From: Fibrobacterota bacterium
Lineage (GTDB): Bacteria > Fibrobacterota > Fibrobacteria > UBA11236
Reading direction: 5' to 3'
DNA: 64,000 nucleotides
NCBI GenBank assembly: GCA_019509785.1
Contig: JAEKLQ010000024.1
Coordinates: forward strand, 62,001 to 126,000
Of the stretch, positions 16,901 to 41,204 are shown one piece after another. How positions within the stretch are numbered: the first letter of the stretch is position 1; every line of letters starts with the position of its first letter. The position numbers and the translations under genes are program-made. A model generated the notes under the pieces. That model searched no databases, was not told where the DNA came from, and was given only the letters and a program-made list of their open reading frames with translations.

Positions 16901-17162
16901 CGGACACAATCATAGGCCCCGGTCCCCTATTTTTCCAAGTGGCCCCGCCCGTTCGCATCCGTTGAAGTCGGCGAAAGCCCCTTTTGCCCTGGATTTCGGG
17001 CGATTTTCCGCCTTTCCGCATTGGGATCCCAACGAAGACGCGCTTTCAGGATCGGCTTTCCCGACGGGAGCCGGAAAAACGTATTTCCCAATACGAGGAT
17101 CCGCGACCCCCTTCGGCGAAAAGAGAAAAAGGCGAACGTCCGCGGACGGACAGGGAAATAGC

Positions 17163-22487: not shown

Positions 22488-22799
22488 TCAGTAAGTGCCG
22501 CGGTTGGTGCTTTGCGTGTTCGGGCGGGGTCCGCCGCGGAAGCCGCCGGGGCTCTCTTCGCGGGGCCGGGCCTCGCGGGCGTTGATCTTCCGGCCGGTAA
22601 GCTCGGCGCCGTTCATCCCTTCGAGCGCGGCGCGGGCTTCGTCGTCGTTGCCCATCTCCACGAACCCGAAACCCCTGGACTTGCCCGTCAACTTGTCCTT
22701 GATGATACGGGCCGAGCTCACGTTGCCGAAGGAGGCGAAAGCATCGCGAAGCTCTTCTTCGGTAGTCTGATAAGGGATGTTGCTGACGTAGATATTCAT
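22488..22799 (-). CDS. RNA recognition motif (RRM) protein
   Basis: This 103-residue single-RRM protein of the bacterial/cyanobacterial Rbp type has RNP2 IYVSNI at the N-terminus and RNP1 KSRGFGFVEM near residues 44-53. Both have the aromatic residues that stack on RNA. A short Gly/Arg/Pro-rich tail of about 20 residues follows. An AGAAGGAA ribosome site precedes the ATG. These proteins are usually cold- or stress-induced RNA chaperones. It is flanked by a terminator and probably transcribed alone. Confidence 0.95.
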   Translation of the reverse strand: MNIYVSNIPYQTTEEELRDAFASFGNVSSARIIKDKLTGKSRGFGFVEMGNDDEARAALEGMNGAELTGRKINAREARPREESPGGFRGGPRPNTQSTNRGTY

Positions 22800-23217: not shown

Positions 23218-26200
23218 GTGACTAAATTAGCCTTCGCCTTGAAATTAGCCAGTGGACCGCTTCGTATAGCGCTCCTGGCCTGCGTCGTGTTCTCGTTCCT
23301 GGCTACGGGATGCACGCGCTCTAACGGGCCTGGGGCAGACTTTTCCGCCAATCGCATCCAAGGGGTGCGTTTGGACCCGTCGTATTATTACGGGTTGAAG
23401 CGCGCGCCCAAGGCCTATTTCGATTCCGCCATCGGCGAATGGCGCACCCACGGCATCAACTCCATCTTCTTCAAGGCCTACGATCCCGAATACGGCGCGG
23501 TGTACCATACGCGTTACCCCGGCAATAGCGAAACCGATTACGGCAAGGAGGATCTGCTGCGCATCGTCCTGGATGCGGCGCATAAGCGCGGCGTGCGGGT
23601 CATCGGATGGCTGCCGGCATTCGAGCATAAGGGCGCCTGGGAGGCCCATCCCGAGTGGCGCATCCAAGGGGCCGACGGCAAGGATTTCCTGCCCGCCCCC
23701 GATCGGCATTTCCTGTGCCCGCGCCAGCCGGGCTTCGCCGCCTGGTGGCGCGGCTTCGTATCCGATCTGCTGGAACGGTACCCCGATCTGGACGGCGTCG
23801 ATTTCGCCGAGCCCATGGCGGTTTGGGGCAGACAAGTCTGCCATTGCCCCTTATGCCTGAAGGAAACCGCCGCCGGCGCCGCCGACGCGCTTTCCCCGCT
23901 GCATGCCGCCCTGCGCGCCCAGGCCCCCACCGATTTGCTGCTGGCTTCGTCCAAGCTCGTGAAGGCGGCCGGGCGTAGCGCCTGCGTTACCTTCATCGGC
24001 ACCGCCGGCAAGGACGGGTCCCTGTTCCCGTTCTCCAAGCAGAAGGAATTGAGCGGCCTGGACGTGGATCGCCTTTTGGATTCGCCCGATCGGCCGCAAT
24101 GGGTTTCCGTCGAGCTGATGTGGCAGCAATGGGCGGACAGCTACGACAATCCCGCCACCTTCCGGCCGGATTGGACCCGGCACGCGACCGAGCAGGCCCT
24201 GGCCGACATCAACGCGCGCGCCCATCTCCTCGTCCACGTGGAAATCACCCCCCTGGGTCCCGTGGAGGTGAGCCCGGACGAACTGGCCGAAAGCATGGTG
24301 GCCGCGCGCCGCGGCGGCGCGCAAAGCATCGAGTTTTACGACACCCATCTGGTCGACAGCCTGGGGGCCTGGCCGGGCGTGGAGAAGGCCTGGCGGACCC
24401 AGAGCGAGCGCAAAGCCCTGGTGCTGCACGATCCCGGCGGCTTGGGGGTCGCCCGCCAGGTGGCCACCTTGTTCGGGCATTTCGGCCTCACCACCCGGGT
24501 GACCCTGGCGGAGAACTTCGCCGACTCGCTCGTGGGGCCCAACGATCTTGTCGCCTACGTGGGCAACAAGGACAATCATCCCTTGCCCGAAGCCTTCCTG
24601 CGCTTCGCCGCGAAGCCGGGGGCGAAGATCTTCTGGGCCGATTTCAACCTATGGCAGCTTGACCGCCCGTTGGTCCGGGGCCATGGGGATACGGCCACCT
24701 ATAAGGATACGGCTAAGGGAATCGCCAACGCGCCTTCCAACGGAACCCTGGCGCGCCTGGGGCTCAAGTGGGAATACCACGATAAGTCCGGCACCTACAA
24801 CACCGTCCTCTACCACGGCCAAGAGCTGTACAAGACCGACTCCATCCTAAACCACGTGGCCATCCTGGATTCGTCCAAGGCCAAAGTGCTGGCGAGCGTG
24901 AAATCCCAGGACGGCGGCCTCTATCCTTATATGATCCGATCGGGGAATTTCTGGTTCGTGGCCGATTGCCCCACGGACTATATCGTGGAAGGCGGCCGCG
25001 ACGCCGTCTTCGCCGATGCCTTGCACGATTTCGTGGGCGAGGATCATCCCGTCGCGCATACGGCCCTGGTACGCATCGAAGACGTTTGCCCGCTCACCGA
25101 TCCCGGCCAGATGAAAGCGATCGCCGATCTGCTCCACGGCGAAGGCGTGCCCTGGTCGATCGCCCTGGTGCCCTATTACGTGGACCCGGAAGAGAACGCC
25201 GTGGTCACCATGCAGGACAAGCCCGAATTCGTGAAGGCGATCCACTACTCGATGGAACACGGGGCCGCCATCGTCATGCACGGGTCCACGCATCAGTACC
25301 GCGGGCGTTCCACCCACGATTACGAATTCTGGGACGCCCTGCACGATACGCCCCTGTTCGAGGACTCGCGCGAGTACGTGCGCACCCGCATCCAGCGCGG
25401 CATCGACGTGATGCGCAAGGAAGGCATCTACCCCATCGCCTGGGAGACTCCGCACTACGCCGGCTCCCAGCTCGACTATTCCGTGGCCGACCAATTCTTC
25501 AGCGCCGAATATGGCCGCCGGCAGGTGATCGACAAGACCGGCTTCGACCAGTTGGTGCCCTACTTCATCGGGAGGCACCCGTCCGGCAATTCCATCATCC
25601 CCGAGAACCTGGGGTATATCCCCAACGATCGCCAGGAGTCGGCGCCATTGCTGCGCTGCGCGCAAAACAACCTGGCGGTCCGCGACGGCTTCGGCAGCTT
25701 CTTCTTCCATCCCTGGATCGATCGCAAGGTGCTGAAGGAACTGGTCCGCGGGCTCAAGGCCCAGGGCTACCGCTTCGCCGACATCCGCGCCATGCCCCTC
25801 AAGATGCAGGCCCAGGGCGTGGCCCAAGTAAGCGGCAGCCAGGAGATCGACCTCGACGGCCAAGGAAAGTGGTTACATGCCTTCTACCTCGATGACGCCG
25901 GCAAGCGCCACGAGGAATGGACCTCCCAGGGCCCGGTCAACCTCCCCTTCCGGAAAACCGTGCGCTGCCCGCCGGGTTGGACCTATGTGGTCGAGGCCAT
26001 CGATAAGCCCGCCGGATGGCTGTCCCGCATCACCCCGCCCGATGCGGGCCTGCTCGGGAAGGCCCGCAGCCGCTTGTTCGCGCCGCCGCCCCTCAAGCTC
26101 GCGAAGGGGGAACCGGCCCGGGCCCTGATCCTGTGGTCCCCGCCCGGCCAGGACCTTCCGGCCATGCCCAACGTTCCTGCCGATACCGCTGCCGCGGCCC

Positions 26201-28506
26201 ATCTGGCCGCCCATCTCGCCGGCCGCGCGCATGCGGTCGGCCATTTCCCGCCCAGCCAGGAGGCCTGGACCCAGGCGCTACAGGCCGCCGGCATCCAGCC
26301 CGATTCCTTACGCCTCGATCGCTTCCTGGAAGTACCCGAGGCCGTGAACCTGGTGGTGGTCCCCGCGCGCACCGCCGCCCTGTTGTCCACCCAACAGGCC
26401 CTGATGCTGGCCCAATGGGTGGCCAAAGGCAAGAACGTGATCCTGGAAGGGCCTTCCGAAACCGCCGAGCATATGGGCATCCATGCCACCGATTCCGGCC
26501 GCACCGTGAGCGAACTCAAGGACGATTACCTGCCGCAAGTGCCCATCAAATGGCCGCAGCCCTCGCCCTATTACGCCTTCGACGCCGACGTGGAATACGT
26601 GAACGAGTACAGCACCCCGGACGACAAGCCCCTGGTGGCGGGCGGGGAATACGGGGAAGGCAAGTACATCTTCTTCGCCGTGCCGTTCGCGGCGCCTGCG
26701 GCGGCCCCATCATCCGCTTCGGCCGCGGCTCCGGCCGCGCCCGCGCAGGGCCCCTACCGCTTCCCTTTCCTGCTCGACCTGATCGAACGCGAGTTCAACG
26801 TATCGCCGGCGTTACGGTCCCCGGAGTTGGAGGTCTATTTCGATCCCGGCAGCCGGGAGGACATCCCGTTGGAAGAGCTGGTGAAGAACTGGCATAAGAA
26901 CGGGGTGCGGGCCGTGTACGCGGCGGCCTGGCATGAATACGCCAAGTACACCTTCGAATACGGGTATCTCGCCGACCTGCTGCATAAGAACGGGATCATG
27001 GCCTACGCCTGGATGGATTTGCCCGAGGTATCGGACAAGTTCTGGCATGAGCATCCCGCCTGGCGCGAGAAGACGGCCGCCGGCACCGATGCGGAGATGG
27101 ATTCGGAAATCGGTTGGAAGCAGTACATGGATTTCGCCAACGACACCGCCCGCGCCGGCGCCTACAACGATCTGAAGCGGATCCTTTTGATGGCGCCCTG
27201 GGACGGGGCCGTACTCACCGGGCGCATGTTCGCGGGCACGAACCCGGGCGATTCGCTCCAGCATATCACCCCTTTCAATCCCGGCTTCCGCGCGCGTTAC
27301 CGCGCGGACAAGGGTTATGATCCCCTCGCCATTTTCGATTCCAAGTCGCCCCAATTCCACGGCAGGTCGATGAAGGCCTGGAACGAATTCTCCGCCTACC
27401 GCGACTCGGTCGAGATCGCCCTGCTCTCCGACGCCGTCGACTTCCTCAAGAAGCAGCGCCCCTTGCAGAAGCCGGGGGCGGAGATCGTGGTCACGCGGCC
27501 CTTCGCAGGCGCGAACGATCGGGAACTGGCCTGGCAGCAGGCTTTGATTACCGGCGACGCCCGCGTGCATCTGCAAGCCGCCTTGCCCAGCGCGGGCATG
27601 GACGCCGACGTCCTGGATCGCATGCTGGCGTCCTGGAGCGGCGCGCATCCGGGTTGGAAGCCGATGGTGGAGCTGCACTTCGACGTGCATAAGCCCGCCA
27701 GCGGCATCACCCCCCAGCTTTGCGGCGTGGAACTGATGGCCCTGGTGGCCCGGGCCGCGCGCGAAGGCACGCGCCTCACCCTGCGCACCGAAGACTACAT
27801 CTACGACACCGACTTCCGCGATCTGGCCTATGCCGCCGGCTCCCGCGCGACCGAAAGCTTCGCGCCCGGGGCCTGGGACCTGGATTCGCCCGGTCGCTCC
27901 ACCCTCGATCTCGACTTCGCCGCCAATCCCGAGGTCATGGTCGACGGGCAGCTCTGGCCCGCCTACGATCGCGGCCGCCTGCTGGTGCCCGAAGGGCGCC
28001 ATCGCATCGAAGCCTGTTCGCGCCTGACCGCTTGGCGCACCTTCCTGTTGGCCCCGGCCCGCATCACCGGTTTCAACGGCGGCATCGCCGACGCCCGCAC
28101 CACCCTGCAAGGCGTACGCCTGCGCTACGATTCCCCCGTGCCCGCCGCGTTGGCCATGAACATGGCGCCGGTCTCGGCCACCCTCGACGGCCTGCCCTTC
28201 CAATGGGGCCCGGCCGCCGCCGTGGACGCGGACAAGGGCAAGGGCGGCAAGCCCGCGACCGTCCCCACGGCCCTGGATCTCCCCGCGGGCAGCCACGATC
28301 TGGTCATCATCACGCGCCCGCTGGCCTCCTCGCTCATGCGCCAGGCCAGTTTCGGGATTTCCATCGTCATCATCGTCATCAGCGTCGGAACCGTGCTGGC
28401 CTTCCTGCTCCTGTACCTAGGGGGATGGCTCAAGCGGTTGTATTCCGGTGAAGAGGCGGCGCCCGGTTCGCATCCGGCGCCAAAAGCCCCTCCGACCCAA
28501 GCGTGA
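23218..28506 (+). CDS. Giant lipoprotein with two glycosidase-like barrels and a DUF2334 deacetylase domain
   Basis: The protein has about 1762 residues with the GTG at 23218; an ATG at 22999 is also in frame. An N-terminal lipoprotein signal ends LATGC (Cys32). Residues ~45-395 form a glycosidase-like TIM barrel (IQGVRLDPSYYYG, DGVDFAEPMAVWG). Residues ~400-485 resemble a flavodoxin/amidotransferase-like fold. Residues ~613-860 are a DUF2334 NodB-like deacetylase (VRIEDVCPLTDP, VMHGSTHQYRG, AWETPHYAGS, FFFHPWIDR). Another amidotransferase-like unit follows (~965-1160), then an Ala/Pro linker and a second barrel (~1200-1400: GVRAVYAAAWHEY, MAYAWMDLPEV). One membrane helix is near residue 1720. 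Hydrolase plus deacetylase recalls PelA and PgaB, the periplasmic trimming enzymes of exopolysaccharide systems. The synthase gene follows 8 bp downstream. Confidence 0.85.
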   Translation: MTKLAFALKLASGPLRIALLACVVFSFLATGCTRSNGPGADFSANRIQGVRLDPSYYYGLKRAPKAYFDSAIGEWRTHGINSIFFKAYDPEYGAVYHTRYPGNSETDYGKEDLLRIVLDAAHKRGVRVIGWLPAFEHKGAWEAHPEWRIQGADGKDFLPAPDRHFLCPRQPGFAAWWRGFVSDLLERYPDLDGVDFAEPMAVWGRQVCHCPLCLKETAAGAADALSPLHAALRAQAPTDLLLASSKLVKAAGRSACVTFIGTAGKDGSLFPFSKQKELSGLDVDRLLDSPDRPQWVSVELMWQQWADSYDNPATFRPDWTRHATEQALADINARAHLLVHVEITPLGPVEVSPDELAESMVAARRGGAQSIEFYDTHLVDSLGAWPGVEKAWRTQSERKALVLHDPGGLGVARQVATLFGHFGLTTRVTLAENFADSLVGPNDLVAYVGNKDNHPLPEAFLRFAAKPGAKIFWADFNLWQLDRPLVRGHGDTATYKDTAKGIANAPSNGTLARLGLKWEYHDKSGTYNTVLYHGQELYKTDSILNHVAILDSSKAKVLASVKSQDGGLYPYMIRSGNFWFVADCPTDYIVEGGRDAVFADALHDFVGEDHPVAHTALVRIEDVCPLTDPGQMKAIADLLHGEGVPWSIALVPYYVDPEENAVVTMQDKPEFVKAIHYSMEHGAAIVMHGSTHQYRGRSTHDYEFWDALHDTPLFEDSREYVRTRIQRGIDVMRKEGIYPIAWETPHYAGSQLDYSVADQFFSAEYGRRQVIDKTGFDQLVPYFIGRHPSGNSIIPENLGYIPNDRQESAPLLRCAQNNLAVRDGFGSFFFHPWIDRKVLKELVRGLKAQGYRFADIRAMPLKMQAQGVAQVSGSQEIDLDGQGKWLHAFYLDDAGKRHEEWTSQGPVNLPFRKTVRCPPGWTYVVEAIDKPAGWLSRITPPDAGLLGKARSRLFAPPPLKLAKGEPARALILWSPPGQDLPAMPNVPADTAAAAHLAAHLAGRAHAVGHFPPSQEAWTQALQAAGIQPDSLRLDRFLEVPEAVNLVVVPARTAALLSTQQALMLAQWVAKGKNVILEGPSETAEHMGIHATDSGRTVSELKDDYLPQVPIKWPQPSPYYAFDADVEYVNEYSTPDDKPLVAGGEYGEGKYIFFAVPFAAPAAAPSSASAAAPAAPAQGPYRFPFLLDLIEREFNVSPALRSPELEVYFDPGSREDIPLEELVKNWHKNGVRAVYAAAWHEYAKYTFEYGYLADLLHKNGIMAYAWMDLPEVSDKFWHEHPAWREKTAAGTDAEMDSEIGWKQYMDFANDTARAGAYNDLKRILLMAPWDGAVLTGRMFAGTNPGDSLQHITPFNPGFRARYRADKGYDPLAIFDSKSPQFHGRSMKAWNEFSAYRDSVEIALLSDAVDFLKKQRPLQKPGAEIVVTRPFAGANDRELAWQQALITGDARVHLQAALPSAGMDADVLDRMLASWSGAHPGWKPMVELHFDVHKPASGITPQLCGVELMALVARAAREGTRLTLRTEDYIYDTDFRDLAYAAGSRATESFAPGAWDLDSPGRSTLDLDFAANPEVMVDGQLWPAYDRGRLLVPEGRHRIEACSRLTAWRTFLLAPARITGFNGGIADARTTLQGVRLRYDSPVPAALAMNMAPVSATLDGLPFQWGPAAAVDADKGKGGKPATVPTALDLPAGSHDLVIITRPLASSLMRQASFGISIVIIVISVGTVLAFLLLYLGGWLKRLYSGEEAAPGSHPAPKAPPTQA

Positions 28507-28514
28507 GGTGAAAC

Positions 28515-29828
28515 GTGCCCTATTCCAGTCCCATTCTTGAATTCCTGTTCCTGTTCTCGGTCTTGATCATCTGGGGGATGATCCTCTTCAACCTGATCCT
28601 CACCTGGGGCGGCTACATCTACCGCCGCAAGTTCCTTAAGAACCCGGTCGCCATGGCCGCCGATACGGAACTGCCTTCGGTCTCCGCCATGATCCCGGCC
28701 CGCAACGAGGCCATGGTCATCGAGAATACGGTGCGGGCGCTTTTGGCGATGGATTATCCCAAGGACAAGTTCGAAGTCATCGTCATCAGCGATCATTCCA
28801 ACGACGGGACCACGGAGATCGTGGAACGGTTGGGCAAGGAAGATGCCCGGGTGCGCTGCCTGTCGTGGCCCGCACGGGAACGGGGCTCGGGCAAGCCGCG
28901 CGCCCTCAACGAGGGCCTGAAGATGTGCCGCTTCCCCGTCATCGCCATCTACGACGGCGATAACAATCCCCGGCCCGAGTCCCTGCGCATCCTGGCTTCG
29001 GCCATGGTGCATAACCCGAACCTGACCGCGGTGTTGGGCAAGTTCCGCTGCATCAACAAGGCCAAGAACATCCTCACCCGCATGGTCAACATCGAGACCT
29101 TGAGCTTCCAATGGATGATCCAGGCCGGCCGCTATTGGTTCTCCAAGTTCGCGATCTTGCCGGGCACCAATTACATCATCAAGAAGTCGGCCCTGGACGC
29201 CGTGGGCGGCTGGGACGAGAAGGCGATTACCGAAGACTCCGAACTCTCGGTGCGCCTGCAGATGATGGGCTACGAGGTGCAATTCGTCCCGACTTCGGTG
29301 ACCTGGGAACAGGAACCGGAAACGTTGAAAGTGTGGATCAAGCAGCGCACGCGCTGGGTGCGCGGCAACAATTACGTGCTCGGCAAGTTCGCGCGCCAGG
29401 CCCTCCGCTTCGAGAACCGGCATCTCACCACCGAGTTCCTCTATATGTTCGGCCTCTACTATCTGTTCCTCCTCTCCACCGTCCTCTCGCACGTCATCTT
29501 CATCTTGAGCTTGCTGGGCGTGATCCGCATCGATATCCCCGGCCCCTACACCGCGGTCTGGATCTCGGCCTATGCCATGTACCTGGCCGAAGTCTTCTTC
29601 GTGCTCTCCTACGAGAAAGAAGACACCTTCTCCAATCTGCTGGTCACCGCGCTCATGTACTTCACTTATTGCCAGCTGTGGATCTACGTGGTGTTCAAAT
29701 CGTTGTGGCTCGACTTCACGCGCACGCGCGTGGGCGTGTGGGACAAGACGGTGCGCTTCAAGACCGATGCCGCCATGCCTCCCGAGCCTTCCGGGCCCGG
29801 CTCCGCCGCGGAGAGCAAGGCCGCATGA
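28515..29828 (+). CDS. Processive family 2 glycosyltransferase (exopolysaccharide synthase-like)
   Basis: This 437-residue membrane protein starts at GTG with a GAGGTGA site. One N-terminal helix (FLFLFSVLIIWGMILFNLIL) precedes a GT-A domain with VSAMIPARNEAMVIENTV, ISDHSNDGTTEI, the metal-binding YDGDNNP, the acceptor Asp in ITEDSELSVRLQ and the processivity motif QRTRW. Three or four C-terminal membrane segments follow. This is the layout of PgaC/NodC/cellulose-synthase-type polymerases that make and export a polysaccharide. It lies between the trimming enzyme and a candidate outer-membrane protein, and its stop overlaps the next start (ATGA). The donor sugar is unknown. Confidence 0.92.
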   Translation: MPYSSPILEFLFLFSVLIIWGMILFNLILTWGGYIYRRKFLKNPVAMAADTELPSVSAMIPARNEAMVIENTVRALLAMDYPKDKFEVIVISDHSNDGTTEIVERLGKEDARVRCLSWPARERGSGKPRALNEGLKMCRFPVIAIYDGDNNPRPESLRILASAMVHNPNLTAVLGKFRCINKAKNILTRMVNIETLSFQWMIQAGRYWFSKFAILPGTNYIIKKSALDAVGGWDEKAITEDSELSVRLQMMGYEVQFVPTSVTWEQEPETLKVWIKQRTRWVRGNNYVLGKFARQALRFENRHLTTEFLYMFGLYYLFLLSTVLSHVIFILSLLGVIRIDIPGPYTAVWISAYAMYLAEVFFVLSYEKEDTFSNLLVTALMYFTYCQLWIYVVFKSLWLDFTRTRVGVWDKTVRFKTDAAMPPEPSGPGSAAESKAA

Positions 29829-31198
29829 ATCGGATCCCCTTGACATATGGGACGGTGACCGTCAGGAGCGTGAAGACCGCCTGGGCCATGGCGGCCCTTG
29901 CTTTGGCGTTGTCCACGGCGGCCCTCGGGAGCGTTCCCCGTTATGCGCCTCCGCCCCCGATCGCGCCCGAGAATGGCGCGCTGGCCATCGATTCGGCGGC
30001 CGATTCCGCCCAGCAGGCCGATTCCATCGTGGCCGAAGCCGATTCCGCCGCCCAAGCCGTTCTCGCCGAATCCGCCCAAGGCGGCGCCGAAACGGCGGGT
30101 CCCGAGGCCCAGGCCGCGCCTCCCCTCTGGTTGGAAACCTATGGCGAAGGCGTCTACTCGCGGCACGAGGACGACAATCTGGCCGGCTTCACCGATTGGA
30201 AGGTGGGCAAGCGCTTGCCGGGCCCGCTCCAGGCCGACTTGTACGCCAAGATCCGCGTATACCGCGACCAACGCGATTTCTATTGGAACAACCGCGCCGA
30301 CGGGGGAGTCGGCGCGCGCATCTCCTTGCTACGCAAGGTATCCCTCATCGCCTTCGCGGAAGGGACTTGGGGCCGCTACCTGAGCGTCTCTCGCGGGGCC
30401 GTGCCTTTGGATCGGATGCAGGGCCGCATCGGCCGCCTCGCCGACAGCGTGGACGCCATGCAGGTCTGGTTCCATGATCATATGTACGACTCCATCTTCA
30501 ACGCCAATAGCAACGCCCTGGGCGGGGGCAATCCCTCGCAGGATCGCAAGGCGCTGGAGCTGGCGGAACAGCAGGGCGATACCTTGGCGCGGGCCCTGCT
30601 CCGGTTGCACTTGCAAGCCGACAGCCTGGAAACCGCCAAGGACAGCTTGCGCCAGGCCATGGACAGCATCGCGCTGATCCCGGCCGGCGAGGCCTCCGAA
30701 TTCAAGGTCGGGCTGGTCTTCTGGCACGGCTGGGGCGCGCCGGACGAAGACGCCACGCCGGCGGCTTGGCTCTCCGCGCCCATGCGCTTCTGGGGCGATG
30801 TCTACGCCGATTGCATCTATTCCTCCTTGTCCAGGCACGTGCTTTCCCGCCGCGCCGATGGCGAATACCATGATAGTACGGCGCGCTTCCGCAACCTCAT
30901 CCTGTACGCCAACCCATCGCTGGGCTTCGTGGTGCTGGAGGGGAAATTGGGGAGCATGGTGGCGTATGCGGGCGGCTACGCCTGGTTCGATACGCATAAG
31001 GATTGGTGGAACAACCTGGCGATGGCAGGGCCGGGCCTGCGTTATATCCCTTTCCGCCGCATCGATTTGTCCGTGAAGGCGGAATGGATGTGGGGCGGCT
31101 ATTACGGGCGCGAGCGCGTTCAGGAACCGAATCCGTACGGGAAAACGTTTTCGGATACGCGCGTGACCGCGAGTTTTTGGCACGGGTTGGGATTGTGA
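29825..31198 (+). CDS. Candidate outer-membrane beta-barrel protein of the exopolysaccharide operon
   Basis: This 457-residue protein is not assigned to a named family. It has a signal peptide (AWAMAALALALSTAALGS) and an Ala/Asp/Ser-rich segment. Alternating amphipathic strands rich in Trp, Tyr and Phe follow (YGEGVYSRHEDDNLAGF, LYAKIRVYRDQRDFYW, VGLVFWHGWG) and end in VTASFWHGLGL. A helical Ala/Asp/Leu region (~residues 225-285) interrupts the strands. The pattern resembles the barrel ends of exopolysaccharide outer-membrane proteins such as PgaA or NfrA. With a synthase and a periplasmic hydrolase/deacetylase upstream, an export-pore or anchoring role is a reasonable inference. Confidence 0.65.
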   Translation: MNRIPLTYGTVTVRSVKTAWAMAALALALSTAALGSVPRYAPPPPIAPENGALAIDSAADSAQQADSIVAEADSAAQAVLAESAQGGAETAGPEAQAAPPLWLETYGEGVYSRHEDDNLAGFTDWKVGKRLPGPLQADLYAKIRVYRDQRDFYWNNRADGGVGARISLLRKVSLIAFAEGTWGRYLSVSRGAVPLDRMQGRIGRLADSVDAMQVWFHDHMYDSIFNANSNALGGGNPSQDRKALELAEQQGDTLARALLRLHLQADSLETAKDSLRQAMDSIALIPAGEASEFKVGLVFWHGWGAPDEDATPAAWLSAPMRFWGDVYADCIYSSLSRHVLSRRADGEYHDSTARFRNLILYANPSLGFVVLEGKLGSMVAYAGGYAWFDTHKDWWNNLAMAGPGLRYIPFRRIDLSVKAEWMWGGYYGRERVQEPNPYGKTFSDTRVTASFWHGLGL

Positions 31199-31226
31199 TT
31201 CCGGTTTCGCCGGGGAAGGGAGCATC

Positions 31227-32717
31227 ATGTTGACGCAAGGAACGGAAAAGCGCCGCGCGGGTTTCGGCTTAATCGTCGGATTGGCGGCCGCGGCGTTGGG
31301 CCGCTCCCCCGCGCTGGGGAGCGTCGGGGATTCCCTCTGGAAATTCTTCGCCGATTACAGCGTGACGACGGTCGAACCCATCGCCGATCTGAGCGGCAAC
31401 GGCGCCGAGGATCTCCTCGTCGGTTCGCAGGACGATACCCTCTACGCGGTGGAGGCGAAAGGGGCGGGCGCCGGCAAGCAGCTTTGGTCCTTTCCCTTCA
31501 AGAGCACGCTCTCCGCCGCCGCGGCCATGCCGGACCTGAACGGGGACGGCAAGCCGGAAGCCGCCGGCGGCGATCAATCGGGGATGGTGGCCGTGATCAA
31601 CGGCGCCGACGGCAAGTTGAAGTGGCGCTATCTCACCGGCCTGGGAACCGTGCTATCGCTGGCGGCCTTGCCCGACGTGAACGGGGACGGGGCGGGCGAC
31701 CTGGCGGTAGGCAGCGAATTGGATTCGGTTTATTGCCTCTCCGGCAATCCCGGCGGCGGCTCAGGAAAGGAATTGTGGTCCTTTGGCGTCCCCGCGAGCA
31801 AAACCCATGGGCCCCCCGGAGGTATGACCGGTCCCGGCGCCAAGATCATGGCGGGGCCGCCCGTGGATGTCCCTTCCGGCGCCAATTCCCTGGCGGTGAT
31901 CGGGGAGAAGAATAAGGCCCCCTCGTGCCTGGCGGTTGGGACCAATAACGATACCGTGTACTGCCTGGGCTTGGCGGATGGCGCGGTCAAATGGAAAAGC
32001 GGATTGCCCGGCGACATCTGGAAGGTTACCTCCTTCCCGGACATGACCGGCGACGGCGTGGAAGAAGTCCTGCTGGCTTGCGGCGCCGACTCGGGATACC
32101 TCTTGAACGGCGCCAATGGGGAAGTCCTCTGGTCGCATGCCGTTTCCCAAGGCGGAGTGAGCGTGGCCGCCACCGCGGATATGGACGGCGACGGCAAGGC
32201 CGACGCCTTGATCGGCGACGGCAACGGGACCGTCCATTGCGTATCCGGAGCCGCCAAGGGCACGGGAGTCAAGGCGGTATGGACGTACGATTTCGGGGAT
32301 GCCAGCACCATCCTGTCCATCGCCTCGCCCGGGGACATCGATAAGGATGGAAAGGCCGATTGCATCGTAGGCACATCCAACGACTCGGTGGCCCTCATCA
32401 GCGGGAAGGGAACGCGCCTGTGGGCGGCCGGCTTGGGCGGGCAGGTCCCGAACGTCGCCGCCTTGGGCGACATCGATGGCAACGGCAGCCCGGATTGGGT
32501 CGCCGGCACCGAAATGGGGTTCGCCGAAGCCTTCTCCGGGGAAGGAAACGTCTCCTTGTTGGCCCCGCGCCCGGCCGCTTTCGGCCGCGCCTCGCTGAGG
32601 CTCAATCCCAGTCTCCCGCTTTTCACCCGCCCCGGTTCCGGCGTATTCTACGATGGCCGCGGACGCGCCTATCCCCGATCCAATACCGGCGCCCGCCGCG
32701 AAGGGCAAGGCCGATGA
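31227..32717 (+). CDS. Secreted FG-GAP/PQQ-like beta-propeller protein
   Basis: This 496-residue protein has a GGGAAGGGAG ribosome site and a short signal-like N-terminus (GLIVGLAAAALGRSPALG). Six or seven propeller blades follow, each with a calcium-binding loop D-x-N/D-G-D/N-G (DLNGDGKPE, DVNGDGAGD, DMTGDGVEE, DMDGDGKAD, DIDKDGKAD, DIDGNGSPD) and a following V-G-x-x-D-x-V-Y-x-L strand. Such propellers bind carbohydrate or protein outside the cell. The C-terminal ~50 residues are basic and lack a clear sorting domain. Its stop overlaps the epimerase start (ATGA), so it belongs to the exopolysaccharide operon. It may bind the polymer. Confidence 0.82.
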   Translation: MLTQGTEKRRAGFGLIVGLAAAALGRSPALGSVGDSLWKFFADYSVTTVEPIADLSGNGAEDLLVGSQDDTLYAVEAKGAGAGKQLWSFPFKSTLSAAAAMPDLNGDGKPEAAGGDQSGMVAVINGADGKLKWRYLTGLGTVLSLAALPDVNGDGAGDLAVGSELDSVYCLSGNPGGGSGKELWSFGVPASKTHGPPGGMTGPGAKIMAGPPVDVPSGANSLAVIGEKNKAPSCLAVGTNNDTVYCLGLADGAVKWKSGLPGDIWKVTSFPDMTGDGVEEVLLACGADSGYLLNGANGEVLWSHAVSQGGVSVAATADMDGDGKADALIGDGNGTVHCVSGAAKGTGVKAVWTYDFGDASTILSIASPGDIDKDGKADCIVGTSNDSVALISGKGTRLWAAGLGGQVPNVAALGDIDGNGSPDWVAGTEMGFAEAFSGEGNVSLLAPRPAAFGRASLRLNPSLPLFTRPGSGVFYDGRGRAYPRSNTGARREGQGR

Positions 32718-33829
32718 GCAAGCCCGTCGTCGCCGTCGTCTTCGGCACGCGCCCGGAGGCCATCAAGATGGTCCCGGTCATCCGCGCCTTGCAGGCCCGG
32801 CCCGAGGTTTCCACCTTGGTCGTCTCCACCGGCCAGCATAAGCAGATGCTGGCCCAGATGCTGAAGCGATTCGAGGTCAAGGTCGATTGCGAGATGGACC
32901 TGATGGAACCCAACCAGAGCCTCTACCGCCTCTCGGCCAAGGCCATCGCCGCCTTCGAGCAAGTGCTGAAAGAACATCAGCCCCGCATGATGCTGGTGCA
33001 AGGCGACACCACCACCGCCTTCCTGGGGGCGCTATGCGCCTTCTACGGGAAGATCGCGGTGGGCCACGTGGAGGCGGGCCTGCGTACCGGCGACAAGTAC
33101 AACCCCTTCCCGGAAGAGGTCAACCGCCGCCTCATCACCGCAGTCGCCGATCTGAATTTCTGCCCCACCCCGGGCAACCGCGACAACCTTCTGCGCGAAG
33201 GCCTCGACCCCCGTACCCTCTCGGTTACCGGCAACACCGGCATCGATACCTTGCTGCTCGCCGCGGGCATGGATCATCCTTTCCCGCTCCCCGATTTGGA
33301 AAAGTCGGGCAAGCGCTTGATCCTCATCACCGTGCATCGCCGGGAAAGCTTCGGCGAACCCATGCGCCAGATCTTCGGCGCCATCCGCGAGTTGTCCTTG
33401 GCCTATCCCGATCACGAGATCGTCTATCCCGTCCACCTCAATCCCAACGTACAGGCCCCCGCGCGGGAAATCCTGGGAGGCCTCAAAAACGTGCGCCTCG
33501 TGGAGCCCATGGATTATTTCGACTTCGTGAAGATGATGGGCCGGGCCCATCTCATCCTCACCGATTCGGGCGGGGTGCAGGAGGAAGCGCCCACCTTGGG
33601 GGCGCCGGTATTGGTGCTTCGTAACGAGACCGAACGGCCGGAAGCGGTGCAGGCCGGCACGGTGCGGCTGGCCGGGACCCGCAAGGAGGACATCCTCCGG
33701 GAAGCGCGCCTCCTCCTCGACGACGAAGCCGAAAGGGCCAAGCTCAGCGCGGCTTCCAACCCTTACGGGGACGGGAAAGCCTCGCCCCGCATCGCCGCAG
33801 CGGTGGTGAAGCATCTTGGATTGGGTTGA
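32714..33829 (+). CDS. wecB: UDP-N-acetylglucosamine 2-epimerase, non-hydrolysing
   Basis: This 371-residue GT-B-fold epimerase of the WecB/WbpI family normally interconverts UDP-GlcNAc and UDP-ManNAc. Motifs are VFGTRPEAIKM at the N-terminus, VQGDTTTAFLGAL, GHVEAGLRTGD, FPEEVNRR, TVHRRESFG, DSGGVQEEAPTLG and RNETERPEAVQAGTVRL. All expected catalytic and UDP-binding blocks are present. As the last gene of the operon it suggests that the polymer contains ManNAc or a derivative. WbpI, which acts on the diacetamido uronic acid, is a close relative, and WbpB/E/D-like genes occur 15 kb away, so the exact substrate is open. Confidence 0.93.
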   Translation: MSKPVVAVVFGTRPEAIKMVPVIRALQARPEVSTLVVSTGQHKQMLAQMLKRFEVKVDCEMDLMEPNQSLYRLSAKAIAAFEQVLKEHQPRMMLVQGDTTTAFLGALCAFYGKIAVGHVEAGLRTGDKYNPFPEEVNRRLITAVADLNFCPTPGNRDNLLREGLDPRTLSVTGNTGIDTLLLAAGMDHPFPLPDLEKSGKRLILITVHRRESFGEPMRQIFGAIRELSLAYPDHEIVYPVHLNPNVQAPAREILGGLKNVRLVEPMDYFDFVKMMGRAHLILTDSGGVQEEAPTLGAPVLVLRNETERPEAVQAGTVRLAGTRKEDILREARLLLDDEAERAKLSAASNPYGDGKASPRIAAAVVKHLGLG

Positions 33830-33904: not shown

Positions 33905-36265
33905 TCAGGGCGAAAGGATCGGTTTGATCCAATCGGGCTGGGACGGGGGCGCGGTCGTCCGCAGTGAATCCTTCCAAACTTCGTCGGTCATGCGGTCCAG
34001 CGTACCGAGCCGCAGCACTTCATAGAAAGAAGAGACCGGCGCCGCATAGAGGGTCACGCAGGAGTCGGTCTGGATCGCCACCGCGGCCAGGCGGATGGGG
34101 CCGCTTCCCACGTGCAACACGCCCTTCTGCCCGATCTCGTCCGATTCGGGTTTGGTATGCACGTCGGCGATGACAGCATCATTGTTCCCGTCGATGCCGG
34201 TGCGCGCGGAAGCGTAAATAAGGTCCAGGAACCAGCCGTCGTAGACCTTCACCGAGGTGCAACCCAGCGGCTGCGCCCGATAGGTCAAGGCTGAGCGCAA
34301 CCATTCGGACTGGGACGAATCGGGACCCAGGCCTTGGGCCGAACGCGCCGCGATCGCTTGCAGGCGTCCGCTAATGTCCTTCAGGGAGGAGAAATACGCG
34401 CTGGCCCGGGCATCATTCCGGAACATGCCCGCGCCGCTGGCGGCATAGGCCGCGACGGCGGCGAAGAATTCGGGGTAGGGTTCCACGTAGGCCTTGGGGA
34501 AATCGCATAGGACGGTTCCCGTGTACGATTGCTTGGCGTACAGCAAGGTGTTGTGCCGCAACTGCGCCCAAGAAGTCAATTGGGTATTGCGCGTCTTGAG
34601 GCGCCAGGCCGGCGAGCGGAAGACCGGGGCCGCCTTGGGATTCGATTCCGCTCCGTTCAGCTTGCGCAGGAAGCCGAGCCAGCCCGTGTACAGATTGGTT
34701 TGCCATCCCCCTGCGCTGATGCCATCGTAGAGTACGCGTTGCGCCCCCAAGATCCCGTTCGCCGCCGCGCCCGTCTTGGCCAAATCCTTCAAAGCGGAAT
34801 TGTCCCCCAAGGCAAAAGCGATTTGCAGGGAGGAAGGCCAGGGCACGCGATCGGAAACGGGATGCACGAGCTGAGAGAAAGTGAATGCATCCAGGATGAA
34901 GCGCTGGGGCATAAAGGAGAAGATGGGGGAAAGATCCAGCGGGTCGCCGGGGTTGTACTTCTTGGCCTGGGAAAGGATGGCCTGCGCGCCGAAGTTGCCC
35001 GCCGCAATCGCCGAGTCGAAACGCGCCTCGGGGAAGGCCGCCACGAAGGCTTGCGCATCGGTCACGCCCAGGGACTGCATTACCAGTCCCATGCCCCGCG
35101 GGCTCAATCCATCGCTTTGGCCCACCATGTATCCGATAACCTTATCGATTTCCAGCCACGCCGGATAAGATCCCGAATTGATCAGGCAATCCCATAGGAT
35201 CACCGCGTCCTTTTTCATGCGCGTATAGGCGGGCTTGTTATCGGGAGGATTGGCGCGCAAATCGAAGGCGAGATCGGCCCGCGACAGCCACATCATGGCC
35301 TGGAAATAGGCCGTCAACCGCGCGCTGCGCGTATAATGCCCGCGCGGCTTGAACTGGGAGAAATCGATCAGGGTATCCCGGCCCCATAAGGAAACCGTCT
35401 TCTCCGTCAGCGCCTTGATGTCCGCCAGATGCGCGGCTATGCCCGGGGTGGACGCGAGGTCCGATCGTTGCGGATTGAGCAACATGCGCGCGGTCCCCAG
35501 CAGTTCGGCCACGTCCCGGCTGGAAGCATCCTCGGGATAATGCGACTCGACGTAGCCTTCGGCGCCAGCCAGGATGGAATCCAACGAAAGCGCGAAACGG
35601 TTTTCCTCCATCCCGGCCAGCAGGCTGTCATAGCTCAGGTAGAGGGTATGCAAGAGGGCATCGCTGGTGAACAGGAGCGGCAGATCCGCGTCATGGATCT
35701 GATCCAAGGCCTGGAAGAAGTTCGGGAAGGAGGGGCCTGCGGGGATGGCCATGCCCTGGGATCGCACCTTGGCCCGGAAGGCGGCGGTGTCGAACGTTAA
35801 GGAGAACTTCGCGAAGGCTTTGCCGACTTCGGACTCGAATTCGATGGGACCGGTTACGGGCGCGAAGGGCACGGTCCCGTCGGGATAGGCGGACTGCAAT
35901 TGCGGAAGGCCCCACGCCTGCTTCGCCTTGGCATCGTCCTGGTAGCGCGCGAAGGCGCCGGAGTCGGCCGGGTCCTGGAAATACAGGCTGCCCAAACCCG
36001 CGGCGGGCTTGCTGAACAACCCGTCGATCCAGCGGCCGTACAGGAGCGCGTCGGAGAGGCCGGTCTTACCGTCCCCGTCCAGGTCCAGGGCCGGCGCCGA
36101 CCCTTGCGCCACCGCATCGAGAAAAGCCTGGGCATCGTCCGCATCGATCTTGCCGTCCCCGTTGATATCGATGGCGCGGGGAACGGCCGCTCCGGCGAGG
36201 CCGGCGCAAAGGGACAAGAGGGCGCAATAGGGAAGGGCCGCGGGAAGGACGCGTAGGAACCTCAT
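33905..36265 (-). CDS. Secreted DUF3160 protein with N-terminal dockerin-like module
   Basis: The protein has 786 residues with a signal peptide (AALPYCALLSLCAGLAGA). Residues ~30-80 hold two calcium-loop/helix repeats (DINGDGKIDADDAQAFLDAV and DLDGDGKTGLSDALLYGRWI) arranged as in a type I dockerin. The rest matches DUF3160, with FFQALDQIHDADLPLLFTSD and ALLHTLYLSYDSLLAGMEE as the typical block. The large helical domain has no known function and occurs in secreted proteins. The start overlaps the stop of the upstream gene (ATGA). A dockerin at the N-terminus is less usual than at the C-terminus. The module may simply be a calcium-binding EF-hand pair. Confidence 0.85.
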   Translation of the reverse strand: MRFLRVLPAALPYCALLSLCAGLAGAAVPRAIDINGDGKIDADDAQAFLDAVAQGSAPALDLDGDGKTGLSDALLYGRWIDGLFSKPAAGLGSLYFQDPADSGAFARYQDDAKAKQAWGLPQLQSAYPDGTVPFAPVTGPIEFESEVGKAFAKFSLTFDTAAFRAKVRSQGMAIPAGPSFPNFFQALDQIHDADLPLLFTSDALLHTLYLSYDSLLAGMEENRFALSLDSILAGAEGYVESHYPEDASSRDVAELLGTARMLLNPQRSDLASTPGIAAHLADIKALTEKTVSLWGRDTLIDFSQFKPRGHYTRSARLTAYFQAMMWLSRADLAFDLRANPPDNKPAYTRMKKDAVILWDCLINSGSYPAWLEIDKVIGYMVGQSDGLSPRGMGLVMQSLGVTDAQAFVAAFPEARFDSAIAAGNFGAQAILSQAKKYNPGDPLDLSPIFSFMPQRFILDAFTFSQLVHPVSDRVPWPSSLQIAFALGDNSALKDLAKTGAAANGILGAQRVLYDGISAGGWQTNLYTGWLGFLRKLNGAESNPKAAPVFRSPAWRLKTRNTQLTSWAQLRHNTLLYAKQSYTGTVLCDFPKAYVEPYPEFFAAVAAYAASGAGMFRNDARASAYFSSLKDISGRLQAIAARSAQGLGPDSSQSEWLRSALTYRAQPLGCTSVKVYDGWFLDLIYASARTGIDGNNDAVIADVHTKPESDEIGQKGVLHVGSGPIRLAAVAIQTDSCVTLYAAPVSSFYEVLRLGTLDRMTDEVWKDSLRTTAPPSQPDWIKPILSP

Positions 36266-37008: not shown

Positions 37009-37058
37009 GGTTTCTCTCCGGATCGGGTATGCGATGCCTAAAAATACTCCTAAACGGG

Positions 37059-37079
37059 CGCCGTACGCCGGCGTTTTTT
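37059..37079 (+). terminator. Terminator-like hairpin in the leader of the first PQQ-dehydrogenase-like gene
   Basis: A 5-bp stem (CGCCG and CGGCG, 5-base loop) is followed at once by six T (37074-37079). It lies on the plus strand between divergent genes, 210 bp before the ATG at 37290, with no plus-strand gene before it. It could be a leader attenuator or chance. Confidence 0.35.
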
Positions 37080-37289
37080 CGCGTCCGCACCAATTATTTT
37101 GGCCTAAATCCGCATCCCCCCGGGACTGCTCCTTTTTTGCGAGCGGAGGTTTACCTTGCGGTGAAAATCCGGTGGCCGTCCATGGCCCGTAGAAGTATCG
37201 TTATTCATCCCTCGACACCGTCCGCCCCTGGGTGCGGCTGTCGGAGAACGCGGCAATATCGGAAATCGGAATCGCTTTCGGGAGAAACC

Positions 37290-39089
37290 ATGACCAATAA
37301 ATTTTTTCCTTGGCTCGCTTTCTCCGCCGCGCTCCCCTTGCAAGCCCAAACGAATTGGACATCGCCGCTATGCCCTACCACCACGCTCAGCGCGAGCGAT
37401 TTCGAGGCCACCGAACTATTCAATAAAAAAGGCGGCACCGGGATCGCCAAGGATGCCGGCATCTCCGAGCCCGTAGGGATGGACGTGCACGCCGTATTCA
37501 CCGCCGGCAAATACGATCATACCGATATCATCTTCACGGAGCGGATGGGGAACCTGAAGTGGTACGACGGGGTGGCGAAGACGGTGAAGGTGATGGCCCA
37601 TTTCAGCGTCCATGCCGACGATCTCGCCCATCTGGAAGACGATAACGGTTTGATGGGCGTCGCCTTCGATCCCCATTTCGACACCAATAAATGGATTTAC
37701 GTGTGGTACAGCCCCAAGCAGACCTATCAACGGGACAACGTGACTCCGGGGGGCCCTCTCTCGAACCGGCAATTGCGCCTGGCCCGCCTCACCGTAAAGC
37801 CGGACAATACCGTGGACACCGCCAGCCAGAAGATCCTCATAAAAATCCTGGGCAACACCACCGATAAATGGCATAGCGGAGGCCCCATGCAATTCGACGC
37901 CTACGGCGATCTCTGGATTGCCATCGGCAACAACAGCCAGGATTTGACTGTAAGCGCCTGTGACTCGGGTCGCAGCGTACTGTCCCAGACCGATAGCTCC
38001 GCCAGCGCGGAATGGTCGTCATCCGATACGCACAGCATGCGCGGGGGTTTCATCCGTATCCACCCCGATGATTCCGCTCCCAAGGGGTACACCATCCCCA
38101 GCGGCAACTTCGGCCAATACTGGGCGGACAAATTCGAACAGCAGGGCAGGGCCGCCTCTCTGGTCGCCCAATACCGCGATACCTCCAAGGTACTGCCCGA
38201 AGTGTACGTGAAAGGGGAGAGGAGCAATTTCTCCTGCGCGGTGCATCCCACCAAACGTTGGCTGGCCTGGGGCACGGTGAATTACAATACCGTGCAAGAC
38301 GAATTCAACATCACCGATCATCCCATCTTCAGCGGTTTCCCCTACTTCATGGCCAAGAACGATCCCACCTGCAACCACGGAAAGAACCCGGACAGCGCGA
38401 CCAACACCTCGGCCCTTAACGGCGGCGTGAAGGTGCTGCCGCCCGCCGTCCCCGGCACCTTGAACAACCTGGTGAACGTCGCCATCGGCGGGCCGATCTA
38501 TAGTTTCGACCCTTCCGTGGATTACGCGGGGAAATTCCCCCCGCATTTCGACAACAAGTGGATCGTGACCGGGTTCTATGGCGGGGTCTGGGGCATTACG
38601 GTGGACGATACCAAGCAGCCTTTCCAATCCCTGGGAGGAACCCCGCCCAAGATGGACGCCACCGGCGGCTTGTTCAGCAATATCAAAGGTTCTTTCCGCA
38701 ATGCATCATGCATGAAGTACGGAAAAGACGGCGCCCTATACATCCTGAATTACGATGGAAACAGGTATACGACGGACACCTTCAATCCCGGCGTGGTGCG
38801 CGTCATTTACAAGGGAAGTTGCAATCCCGTTTCCCTGGCCCGGAAAATGGAAGCCCCCTATCAAAGCATCTGGATCGACCCGCTCGGCATCACCATCAAG
38901 GAAGCGGGCCCCCACGTGGTTGCCTTGTACGACCTCAACGGGCACCGGGTCTGGAACGATCAAGACATGGGACCGAAGGTATACCGGCTAAGCCTTATCC
39001 GCGCCCAAGCGTCCTTGCGGCCGGGATTGTATATGGCCCGGGTGAACACCCCGGCCGGGGAGGTCTCCCGGCGCATCTCGGTATTCTAA
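37290..39089 (+). CDS. Secreted PQQ-dependent sugar-dehydrogenase-like protein with sorting domain (copy 1)
   Basis: The 599-residue protein starts after a GGGAGAAA site and has a short signal peptide (FPWLAFSAALPLQAQ). The body is a six-bladed propeller of the glucose/sorbosone dehydrogenase type. Blocks are EDDNGLMGVAFDPHFD, WIYVWYSPKQ, KWHSGGPMQFDAYGDLWIAI (with the His expected at the active site) and GERSNFSCAVHPTKRW. The last ~70 residues form a T9SS-type sorting domain (VVALYDLNGHRVW, RPGLYMARVNTPAGEVSRR). Oxidation of a sugar outside the cell is the family activity; the substrate is not known. It is the first of three tandem paralogues. The 281-bp upstream region carries a hairpin at 37059. 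Confidence 0.85.
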   Translation: MTNKFFPWLAFSAALPLQAQTNWTSPLCPTTTLSASDFEATELFNKKGGTGIAKDAGISEPVGMDVHAVFTAGKYDHTDIIFTERMGNLKWYDGVAKTVKVMAHFSVHADDLAHLEDDNGLMGVAFDPHFDTNKWIYVWYSPKQTYQRDNVTPGGPLSNRQLRLARLTVKPDNTVDTASQKILIKILGNTTDKWHSGGPMQFDAYGDLWIAIGNNSQDLTVSACDSGRSVLSQTDSSASAEWSSSDTHSMRGGFIRIHPDDSAPKGYTIPSGNFGQYWADKFEQQGRAASLVAQYRDTSKVLPEVYVKGERSNFSCAVHPTKRWLAWGTVNYNTVQDEFNITDHPIFSGFPYFMAKNDPTCNHGKNPDSATNTSALNGGVKVLPPAVPGTLNNLVNVAIGGPIYSFDPSVDYAGKFPPHFDNKWIVTGFYGGVWGITVDDTKQPFQSLGGTPPKMDATGGLFSNIKGSFRNASCMKYGKDGALYILNYDGNRYTTDTFNPGVVRVIYKGSCNPVSLARKMEAPYQSIWIDPLGITIKEAGPHVVALYDLNGHRVWNDQDMGPKVYRLSLIRAQASLRPGLYMARVNTPAGEVSRRISVF

Positions 39090-39153
39090 GGGAGTTACAA
39101 CGCCTAAAGAGGGCCAAAGCCTCCATTTCACCTTCATTTTCTCCTAGGACCTG

Positions 39154-39182
39154 TTGCCTGGTGCGCAGAAGGGCCTTATAGT
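39154..39182 (+). promoter_or_regulatory. Candidate promoter for the second PQQ-dehydrogenase-like gene
   Basis: TTGCCT (39154-39159) and TATAGT (39177-39182) are spaced by 17 bp, 40 bases before the ATG. It suggests that the second paralogue can be transcribed on its own. Confidence 0.5.
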
Positions 39183-39221
39183 AATACAGGCGTTCCGCGC
39201 CTAAATACCTCGGGGGGGGTT

Positions 39222-40985: not shown

Positions 40986-41204
40986 TGGAAGGGTCCCCTG
41001 GCTCCCCTCCGCGTAAGGGGGGCCTTGGCTTGGGGCGGCCAGGAATCACCGAAATACGCGCTACACAGAGGAATGCATATTCTTCCAGAGGGCACGAGTC
41101 AGTTTCGTCATTTTGCGATATTCTAGGGAATTAGACAGGGGTGGGGCGCCCGGGAATGCATAAACGAGTGCCCCTTTTCTCCATTTTTTCGTCAGGGGAT
41201 CGAA

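Follow-up and report, generated by a model that had tools for sequence, protein, structure and literature searches.

The window analyzed here is a stretch of 64,000 nucleotides from a Fibrobacterota bacterium. In it, five adjacent plus-strand genes appear to encode a synthase-dependent exopolysaccharide system of the Pss/YdaJ-N/PGR class, in a diderm and without BcsB, which would make a partly deacetylated ManNAc polymer. We give this reading a probability of about 0.7. The kind of system is already known. As far as the literature searched goes, the variant is new in that it has a giant fused protein, lacks BcsB and brings these parts together in a diderm. The locus links two groups of systems: the Pss/Yda systems of Firmicutes, with a polymer known from Listeria, and the ManNAc-type systems of diderms, so far mainly known as phage receptors; the link runs through a common GT2, a linked WecB and a common outer-membrane (OM) protein. 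The features of the locus are the following.

22488-22799, minus strand: RRM gene, the divergent flank of the block
23218-28506, plus strand: gene for the giant protein (1762 aa)
23218-23313, plus strand: signal sequence of the giant, with a lipobox-like ATGC motif at its end (Cys = residue 32)
23341-24381, plus strand: GHL barrel 1, from Pfam-type matches, profile comparison and conserved residues
24382-25044, plus strand: Rossmann-like domain, for which profile comparison shows homology with the N-terminal region of PssB/YdaL-type proteins
25045-25806, plus strand: DUF2334 deacetylase-like domain, with its RIED, HGSTH, ETPHY and FFFHPW motifs intact
26065-26826, plus strand: second Rossmann-like region, with a weak DUF4350 match
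26827-27783, plus strand: GHL barrel 2, degenerate, its first conserved Glu lost (profile comparison, conserved residues)
28357-28413, plus strand: C-terminal transmembrane helix of the giant (residues about 1714-1732)
28515-29828, plus strand: GT2 gene (437 aa)
29825-31198, plus strand: OM protein gene (457 aa)
30407-30667, plus strand: helical insertion (residues 195-281) in the AlphaFold model of the OM protein, separating predicted strand 5 from strand 6
31227-32717, plus strand: propeller gene
32714-33829, plus strand: WecB gene
33905-36265, minus strand: DUF3160 gene, the convergent flank of the block

The five open reading frames that a first-pass annotation of this DNA had reported are all present, and the gaps between them, from the giant to WecB, are +8, -4, +28 and -4 bases. 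That annotation had three genes coupled by 4-base overlaps; there are only two such overlaps, GT2/OM and propeller/WecB. Two minus-strand genes bound the block, RRM (divergent) and DUF3160 (convergent), which gives it the appearance of a self-contained transcription unit. No promoter-like or terminator-like site at the block exceeds what is found in shuffled sequence.

The five genes form a discrete cassette that is present or absent as a unit at a fixed site. Among 168 Fibrobacterota genomes, this GT2 (threshold E 1e-40, or 1e-45 when a profile was used) and the giant (E <= 1e-10) are found in only 4, all in one genus. The grouping of the genes is beyond chance, because the order giant-GT2-OM-propeller-WecB is kept in the three other genomes (in one of them, G155, the giant is incomplete because the contig end cuts its gene). 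In G156 and G157, the two members of the genus that lack the GT2, the giant, the OM protein and the high-scoring WecB described below are missing as well. In G157 the RRM and DUF3160 genes adjoin each other, and in G156 two open reading frames without a Pfam match lie between them. In the window genome and in G159, the cassette sits between these identical flanks. In G158 it lies beside the RRM gene and DUF3160 is missing, and in G155 it sits elsewhere, the RRM-DUF3160 interval holding only a paralogue of the OM protein. Outside the genus, subsets of the genes occur together: GHL, PssB-like and GT2 in Armatimonadota; GT2, WecB and OM protein in Acinetobacter.

A processive GT2 with DGD and QRTRW motifs had been proposed, and we confirm both, together with the D and TED motifs. 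The best curated match is the PgaC/IcaA model, at 163 bits versus a cut-off of 422, and the BcsA model gives 94 bits versus a cut-off of 699. Pairwise, the GT2 is 43% identical to Listeria PssC over 94% of its length (E about 1e-98), 36% identical to Acinetobacter PgrC, and 22-27% identical to PgaC, BcsA and NfrB. A scan of 84,980 genomes with two peptide patterns (AMDYPKD and SFQWMIQ) found four full-length relatives outside the genus, with identities of 41-43%, the rest being at <= 31%; relatives in other phyla are under-sampled because only these two patterns were used. A sequence search of the PDB returned BcsA-like and other GT2s only, and PF03142, used as a GT2 bait in the genome itself, gave no match.

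In a maximum-likelihood tree, the GT2 falls in a clade of 18 members (support 95/94) that includes Listeria PssC, Bacillota (YdaM-type) proteins, Acinetobacter PgrC and two Armatimonadota groups. This clade stands apart from PgaC, BcsA and NfrB, and within it the tree has no resolved branch that would identify the sister of the window's GT2. Experiments have implicated synthases of this clade, or the loci that encode them, in polymer synthesis (PMC4125290, PMC12507263), so the GT2 groups with polymerizing PssC/PgrC-type synthases and not with single-sugar transferases.

The giant protein runs from a signal sequence with lipobox through GHL barrel 1, a Rossmann-like domain, DUF2334, a second Rossmann-like region, GHL barrel 2 and a beta region to a C-terminal transmembrane helix. 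Its start codon is uncertain, the reading frame being open back to 22999. In the three genomes read, the lipobox Cys is followed by T, Q or G and in none by D. Family matches are to GHL6 (E 1.5e-9), GHL10 (1.3e-6) and DUF2334 (3e-48), and the DUF4350 match is below its cut-off. Membership in DUF2334 (PF10096) is indicated both by the profile match and by the conserved D/H residues.

Profile comparison shows two GHL barrels enclosing the core of the giant, a unit of PssB/YdaL type made up of a Rossmann domain and DUF2334. Barrel 1 matches gene 1 and gene 3 of the Armatimonadota loci discussed below (both prob 100, E 4e-68 and 5e-60). The first Rossmann-like domain matches gene 2 (prob 98.6) and the PssB set (93.9), as does DUF2334 (99.4 and 99.9). 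For barrel 2 the match to gene 1 (93.7) and gene 3 (91.9) covers the N-terminal part of the barrel only. The giant is thus a fusion in which a PssB/YdaL unit follows a GHL barrel, arranged as the separate genes are in Armatimonadota, plus a degenerate second barrel. A complete three-gene fusion does not follow: the giant is clearly a fusion for its first half only, because the second Rossmann-like region matched nothing in the related systems compared.

The giant had been described as a double-barrel hydrolase/deacetylase lipoprotein. The two related barrels (barrel 2 vs. barrel 1, prob 79.5, E 1.5e-5 over 87 columns), the DUF2334 and the lipobox-like Cys all stand. Two active hydrolases do not follow, because barrel 2 retains one of the two conserved acidic positions and has lost the other; it probably binds the polymer. 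In barrel 1, the Glu of LDGVDFAEP and the Glu of HVEIT are common to all aligned GHL relatives and are possibly the active-site residues. The four DUF2334 motifs are intact in the giant and in Bacillota, and lost in Listeria PssB and Armatimonadota. Deacetylation is thus not class-wide, since the latter two lack the putative metal ligands. The C-terminal hydrophobic helix is also found in Listeria PssB, in one Bacillota DUF2334 protein and in one Armatimonadota gene-2 protein. The AlphaFold model of the C-terminal two thirds of the giant (pLDDT 39) was left out of the fold search, and PDB sequence searches with the giant and with a Bacillota DUF2334 protein returned nothing useful. We found no description of the giant fusion in a literature search covering few subscription journals.

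The candidate outer-membrane barrel has no Pfam match. Its AlphaFold model of about 13 long strands (pLDDT 58) and the Foldseek matches to beta-barrels (autotransporter, porin; best E 6.6e-7) agree in predicting one. Searched against Acinetobacter, the family profile recovers PgrG in one record (1.1e-8) and, in a second, PgrG in two collinear pieces (1.2e-5 and 4.4e-4). The same profile finds nothing in the Armatimonadota and Bacillota genomes searched. Pairwise profile probabilities are 92.7 for PgrG, 9.7 for NfrA, 0.3 for PgaA and 0.1 for BcsC, and the similarity to PgrG is mainly in the C-terminal 84 residues. No TPR is recognized in the protein. A tblastn search found no plasmid-borne relatives; the profile search did find them.

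The calcium-loop propeller is borne out by FG-GAP/PQQ-type repeats with DxDGDG-like loops, and has a probable signal peptide. The last gene is, as annotated, a non-hydrolyzing UDP-GlcNAc 2-epimerase, at 454 bits against WecB/TIGR00236 (cut-off 210). WecB is a common protein (10/14 control genomes), and a second one is encoded elsewhere in the window genome. The WecBs of the operon score 454-474 bits, and every other WecB in the genus is at <= 343; the high-scoring form is in 4/4 genomes with the operon and 0/2 without. It is 39% identical to the WecB linked to the Acinetobacter PGR locus. In the Armatimonadota and Bacillota genomes, WecB is unlinked.

Two lines of evidence suggest a ManNAc polymer, by analogy: the linked WecB and the chemistry of Listeria, where the Pss polymer is a beta-1,4-ManNAc chain with alpha-1,6-Gal (PMC5422440). 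The NGR system of E. coli and the PGR system of A. baumannii each require WecB (PMC8669472, PMC8669469, PMC12507263). The earlier guess of ManNAc with partial deacetylation gains in plausibility from the linked WecB, the PssC-type GT2 and the intact DUF2334 motifs.

One alternative is a PNAG-like system, in which the GT2 would use UDP-GlcNAc, DUF2334 and barrel 1 would act as the two halves of PgaB, and WecB would serve another pathway. PgaC/IcaA being the best curated model speaks for it, as does a weak profile match (prob 44.8, E 2e-4) between barrel 1 and the C-terminal half of PgaB. However, the PgaC score is far under its cut-off, the tree sets PgaC outside the PssC/PgrC clade, DUF2334 has no match to the deacetylase half of PgaB, and an operon-specific WecB tracks the operon even though the genome has another one. 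We consider this alternative unlikely, and with no PgaA match either, the locus is not a member of the Pga (PNAG) family. Nor is it a cellulose (Bcs) locus, having no BcsA-level GT2, no BcsB and no BcsC match, or a Pel locus, judged on the polymerase (a GT2 here vs. the GT4 PelF).

Alternatively, the product could be a mixed polymer or a modified surface glycan, with the UDP-ManNAc from WecB going into a copolymer or into a further sugar whose synthesis uses enzymes encoded elsewhere. Side groups of alpha-Gal do occur on Listeria Pss (PMC5422440), lectin data on Bacillus ydaJ-N suggest Gal or GalNAc residues (PMC13274460), and the propeller has no assigned role. But the cassette has one polymerase, no other transferase and no ManNAcA dehydrogenase, and we regard a mixed polymer as improbable too. 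A system that secretes no polymer, with a GT2 transferring single sugars onto a lipid or protein and unrelated envelope genes as its neighbors, is very improbable: several single-sugar models match weakly (HpnI, HpnB), but against it stand the motifs of the GT2 (QRTRW, TED), its place in the PssC/PgrC clade, the export or modification genes of two independent neighborhoods, and the behavior of the cassette.

For the BcsB-free ManNAc system that we favor, the proposed pathway is as follows. Gene content, homologies and the joint inheritance of the block are observed; substrate, linkage, deacetylation, the location of the proteins and the sequence of steps are inferred from them. WecB would convert UDP-GlcNAc to UDP-ManNAc, and an inner-membrane GT2 would polymerize it, probably to beta-1,4-ManNAc like its homolog PssC in Listeria, and move the chain into the periplasm. 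There the giant would be anchored through the helix at its C-terminus, possibly with a lipid at its N-terminus as a second anchor, and receive the chain; its DUF2334 may strip some N-acetyl groups, while barrel 1 would cut or edit the chain and the degenerate barrel 2 bind it. The giant may substitute for BcsB. The polymer would then exit via the PgrG-related beta-barrel, and the propeller may be a periplasmic or surface scaffold. A bolder version, which we hold as doubtful, is that the giant is a trans-periplasmic conveyor, with its lipidated N-terminus in the outer membrane, as the lack of D after the lipobox Cys would fit, and the helix at its other end next to the GT2 in the inner membrane. 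One protein would then span the envelope, deacetylating and editing the chain and passing it to a barrel without TPRs, and BcsB would be dispensable. The giant is a naturally fused set of modification domains with a deacetylase-like domain that keeps its active-site motifs, which makes the claim of partly deacetylated ManNAc polymers testable.

The first-pass annotation had taken the system for a candidate undescribed one, with an order, a giant enzyme and an epimerase that match none of Pga, Pel or cellulose. To call it undescribed goes too far: the DUF2334-GT2 core is the PssB-PssC/YdaL-YdaM pair, the set of GT2, OM protein and WecB parallels the A. baumannii PGR locus (PMC12507263), and a similar operon was proposed earlier for C. 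difficile (PMC7710045). The claim of a synthase-dependent exopolysaccharide operon is itself supported, by the clade of the GT2 and by the co-occurrence of the genes. The operon shares with the class a GT2 of the PssC/YdaM/PgrC clade with processive motifs, an adjacent PssB/YdaL-type DUF2334 (within the giant) and, as in the PGR locus, linkage of the GT2 with WecB and with an OM protein of PgrG type. Yet BcsB, the defining part, is absent from the operon and from the six genomes of the genus searched, and for that reason we call the operon a variant of the class and not Pss, Yda or PGR proper; it shows a class member without BcsB. Profile comparison found no counterpart of BcsB, PssA, PssE, PgrA, PgrB or PgrE in the giant or the propeller (as positive controls, Bacillota BcsB gave 94.0 with Acinetobacter BcsB and 97.8 with E. 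coli BcsB). There is no GGDEF, PilZ or MshEN match in the five proteins, and no c-di-GMP module was identified among them, in contrast to Pss (PssE), Yda (YdaK) and Nfr; in PGR the receptor, PgrA, is degenerate.

The Listeria locus (pssA-E, PssZ; PMC4125290) reads DUF2334-GT2-BcsB-diguanylate cyclase. The GT2 similarity is orthologous-grade, and a DUF2334 protein with a C-terminal transmembrane segment lies directly upstream of the GT2, as in Bacillota. Unlike the operon here, Pss has the BcsB-like PssD, the GGDEF protein PssE and the membrane protein PssA, and has no GHL fusion, OM protein or linked WecB. The Bacillota loci (L018-L020) carry GH8-type hydrolase, DUF2334, GT2 and BcsB-like genes, with a GGDEF-type gene as well in L019 and L020, in an order that matches ydaJKLMN (PMC13274460). 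Their GT2 (41-43%) comes after a DUF2334 gene in which the motifs seen in the giant are preserved, whereas the GH8-type hydrolase, GGDEF receptor and BcsB-like protein take the place of giant, OM protein and WecB. This comparison rests on loci from Bacillota MAGs, with the B. subtilis proteins set beside them by description.

In Acinetobacter, a GT2-BcsB locus with WecB and a TPR-containing protein is the PGR locus (pgrA-G, PMC12507263), in which PgrG adjoins WecB and the PssC-type GT2. It is also from a diderm, with a shared OM C-terminal region and a proposed ManNAc polymer. It differs in having BcsB (PgrD), PgrA/B/E and TPRs in PgrG, and in having no DUF2334 giant or propeller. The C. difficile 630 BcsA/B-like operon, which we compare by description only, was predicted from its GT2, BcsB, hydrolase (GH113), WecB and deacetylase to make a partly deacetylated ManNAc-rich polymer (PMC7710045); unlike ours, it has BcsB, belongs to a monoderm, and has no giant and no OM protein. 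E. coli NGR (NfrA, NfrB, WecB) likewise combines a GT2, an OM barrel and a WecB-derived precursor (PMC8669472, PMC8669469), but NfrB, at 22% over 76 residues, lies well away from the clade and contains MshEN, and the profile match of NfrA is only the 9.7 given above.

Finally, the Armatimonadota loci (L086-L090, L093) have a barrel and Rossmann-DUF2334 units homologous to those of the giant, and these precede a GT2 (41-42% identity) in the order that they have in the giant. They differ in that the genes are separate and the DUF2334 ligands lost; no linked WecB or OM homolog was found in them. A GHL-containing protein lies directly upstream of the GT2 in 6/8 Armatimonadota matches. The only three fully readable loci (L086, L088 and L089) run from a GHL protein through a Rossmann-DUF2334 protein and a Rossmann-degenerate-DUF2334-GHL protein to the GT2. 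After the GT2 comes a HEAT-repeat gene, recognized by Pfam in L093.

At the G155 locus L131 (contig C169), in a genome of the same genus, a paralogue of the cassette outer-membrane protein is the sole gene separating the RRM and DUF3160 genes, whereas in the window the same interval holds the entire cassette.

L131 3483-4682, minus strand: paralogue of the cassette outer-membrane protein

This paralogue is without the long helical insertion.

The GT2s of two Armatimonadota loci, L091 and L092, fall in the clade of the window GT2 and match it at 44%; among their neighbours, no DUF2334, GHL or BcsB-like gene was recognised. The Listeria locus L067 carries a DUF2334 domain in PssB.

L067 6482-7978: Listeria PssB

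The putative metal ligands of this domain are gone, which suggests a non-catalytic role there.

Two further features were observed in the window.

14786-16909, minus strand: 707-aa ORF, a fusion of bacterial sugar transferase (PF02397), polysaccharide deacetylase and DUF3473 domains
37029-42977, plus strand: three consecutive, related GSDH (glucose/sorbosone dehydrogenase) domain genes, tandem duplicates

Conservation of the fusion ORF is high genus-wide (about 70-79%), and other genus members likewise have relatives of the GSDH genes near the corresponding position.
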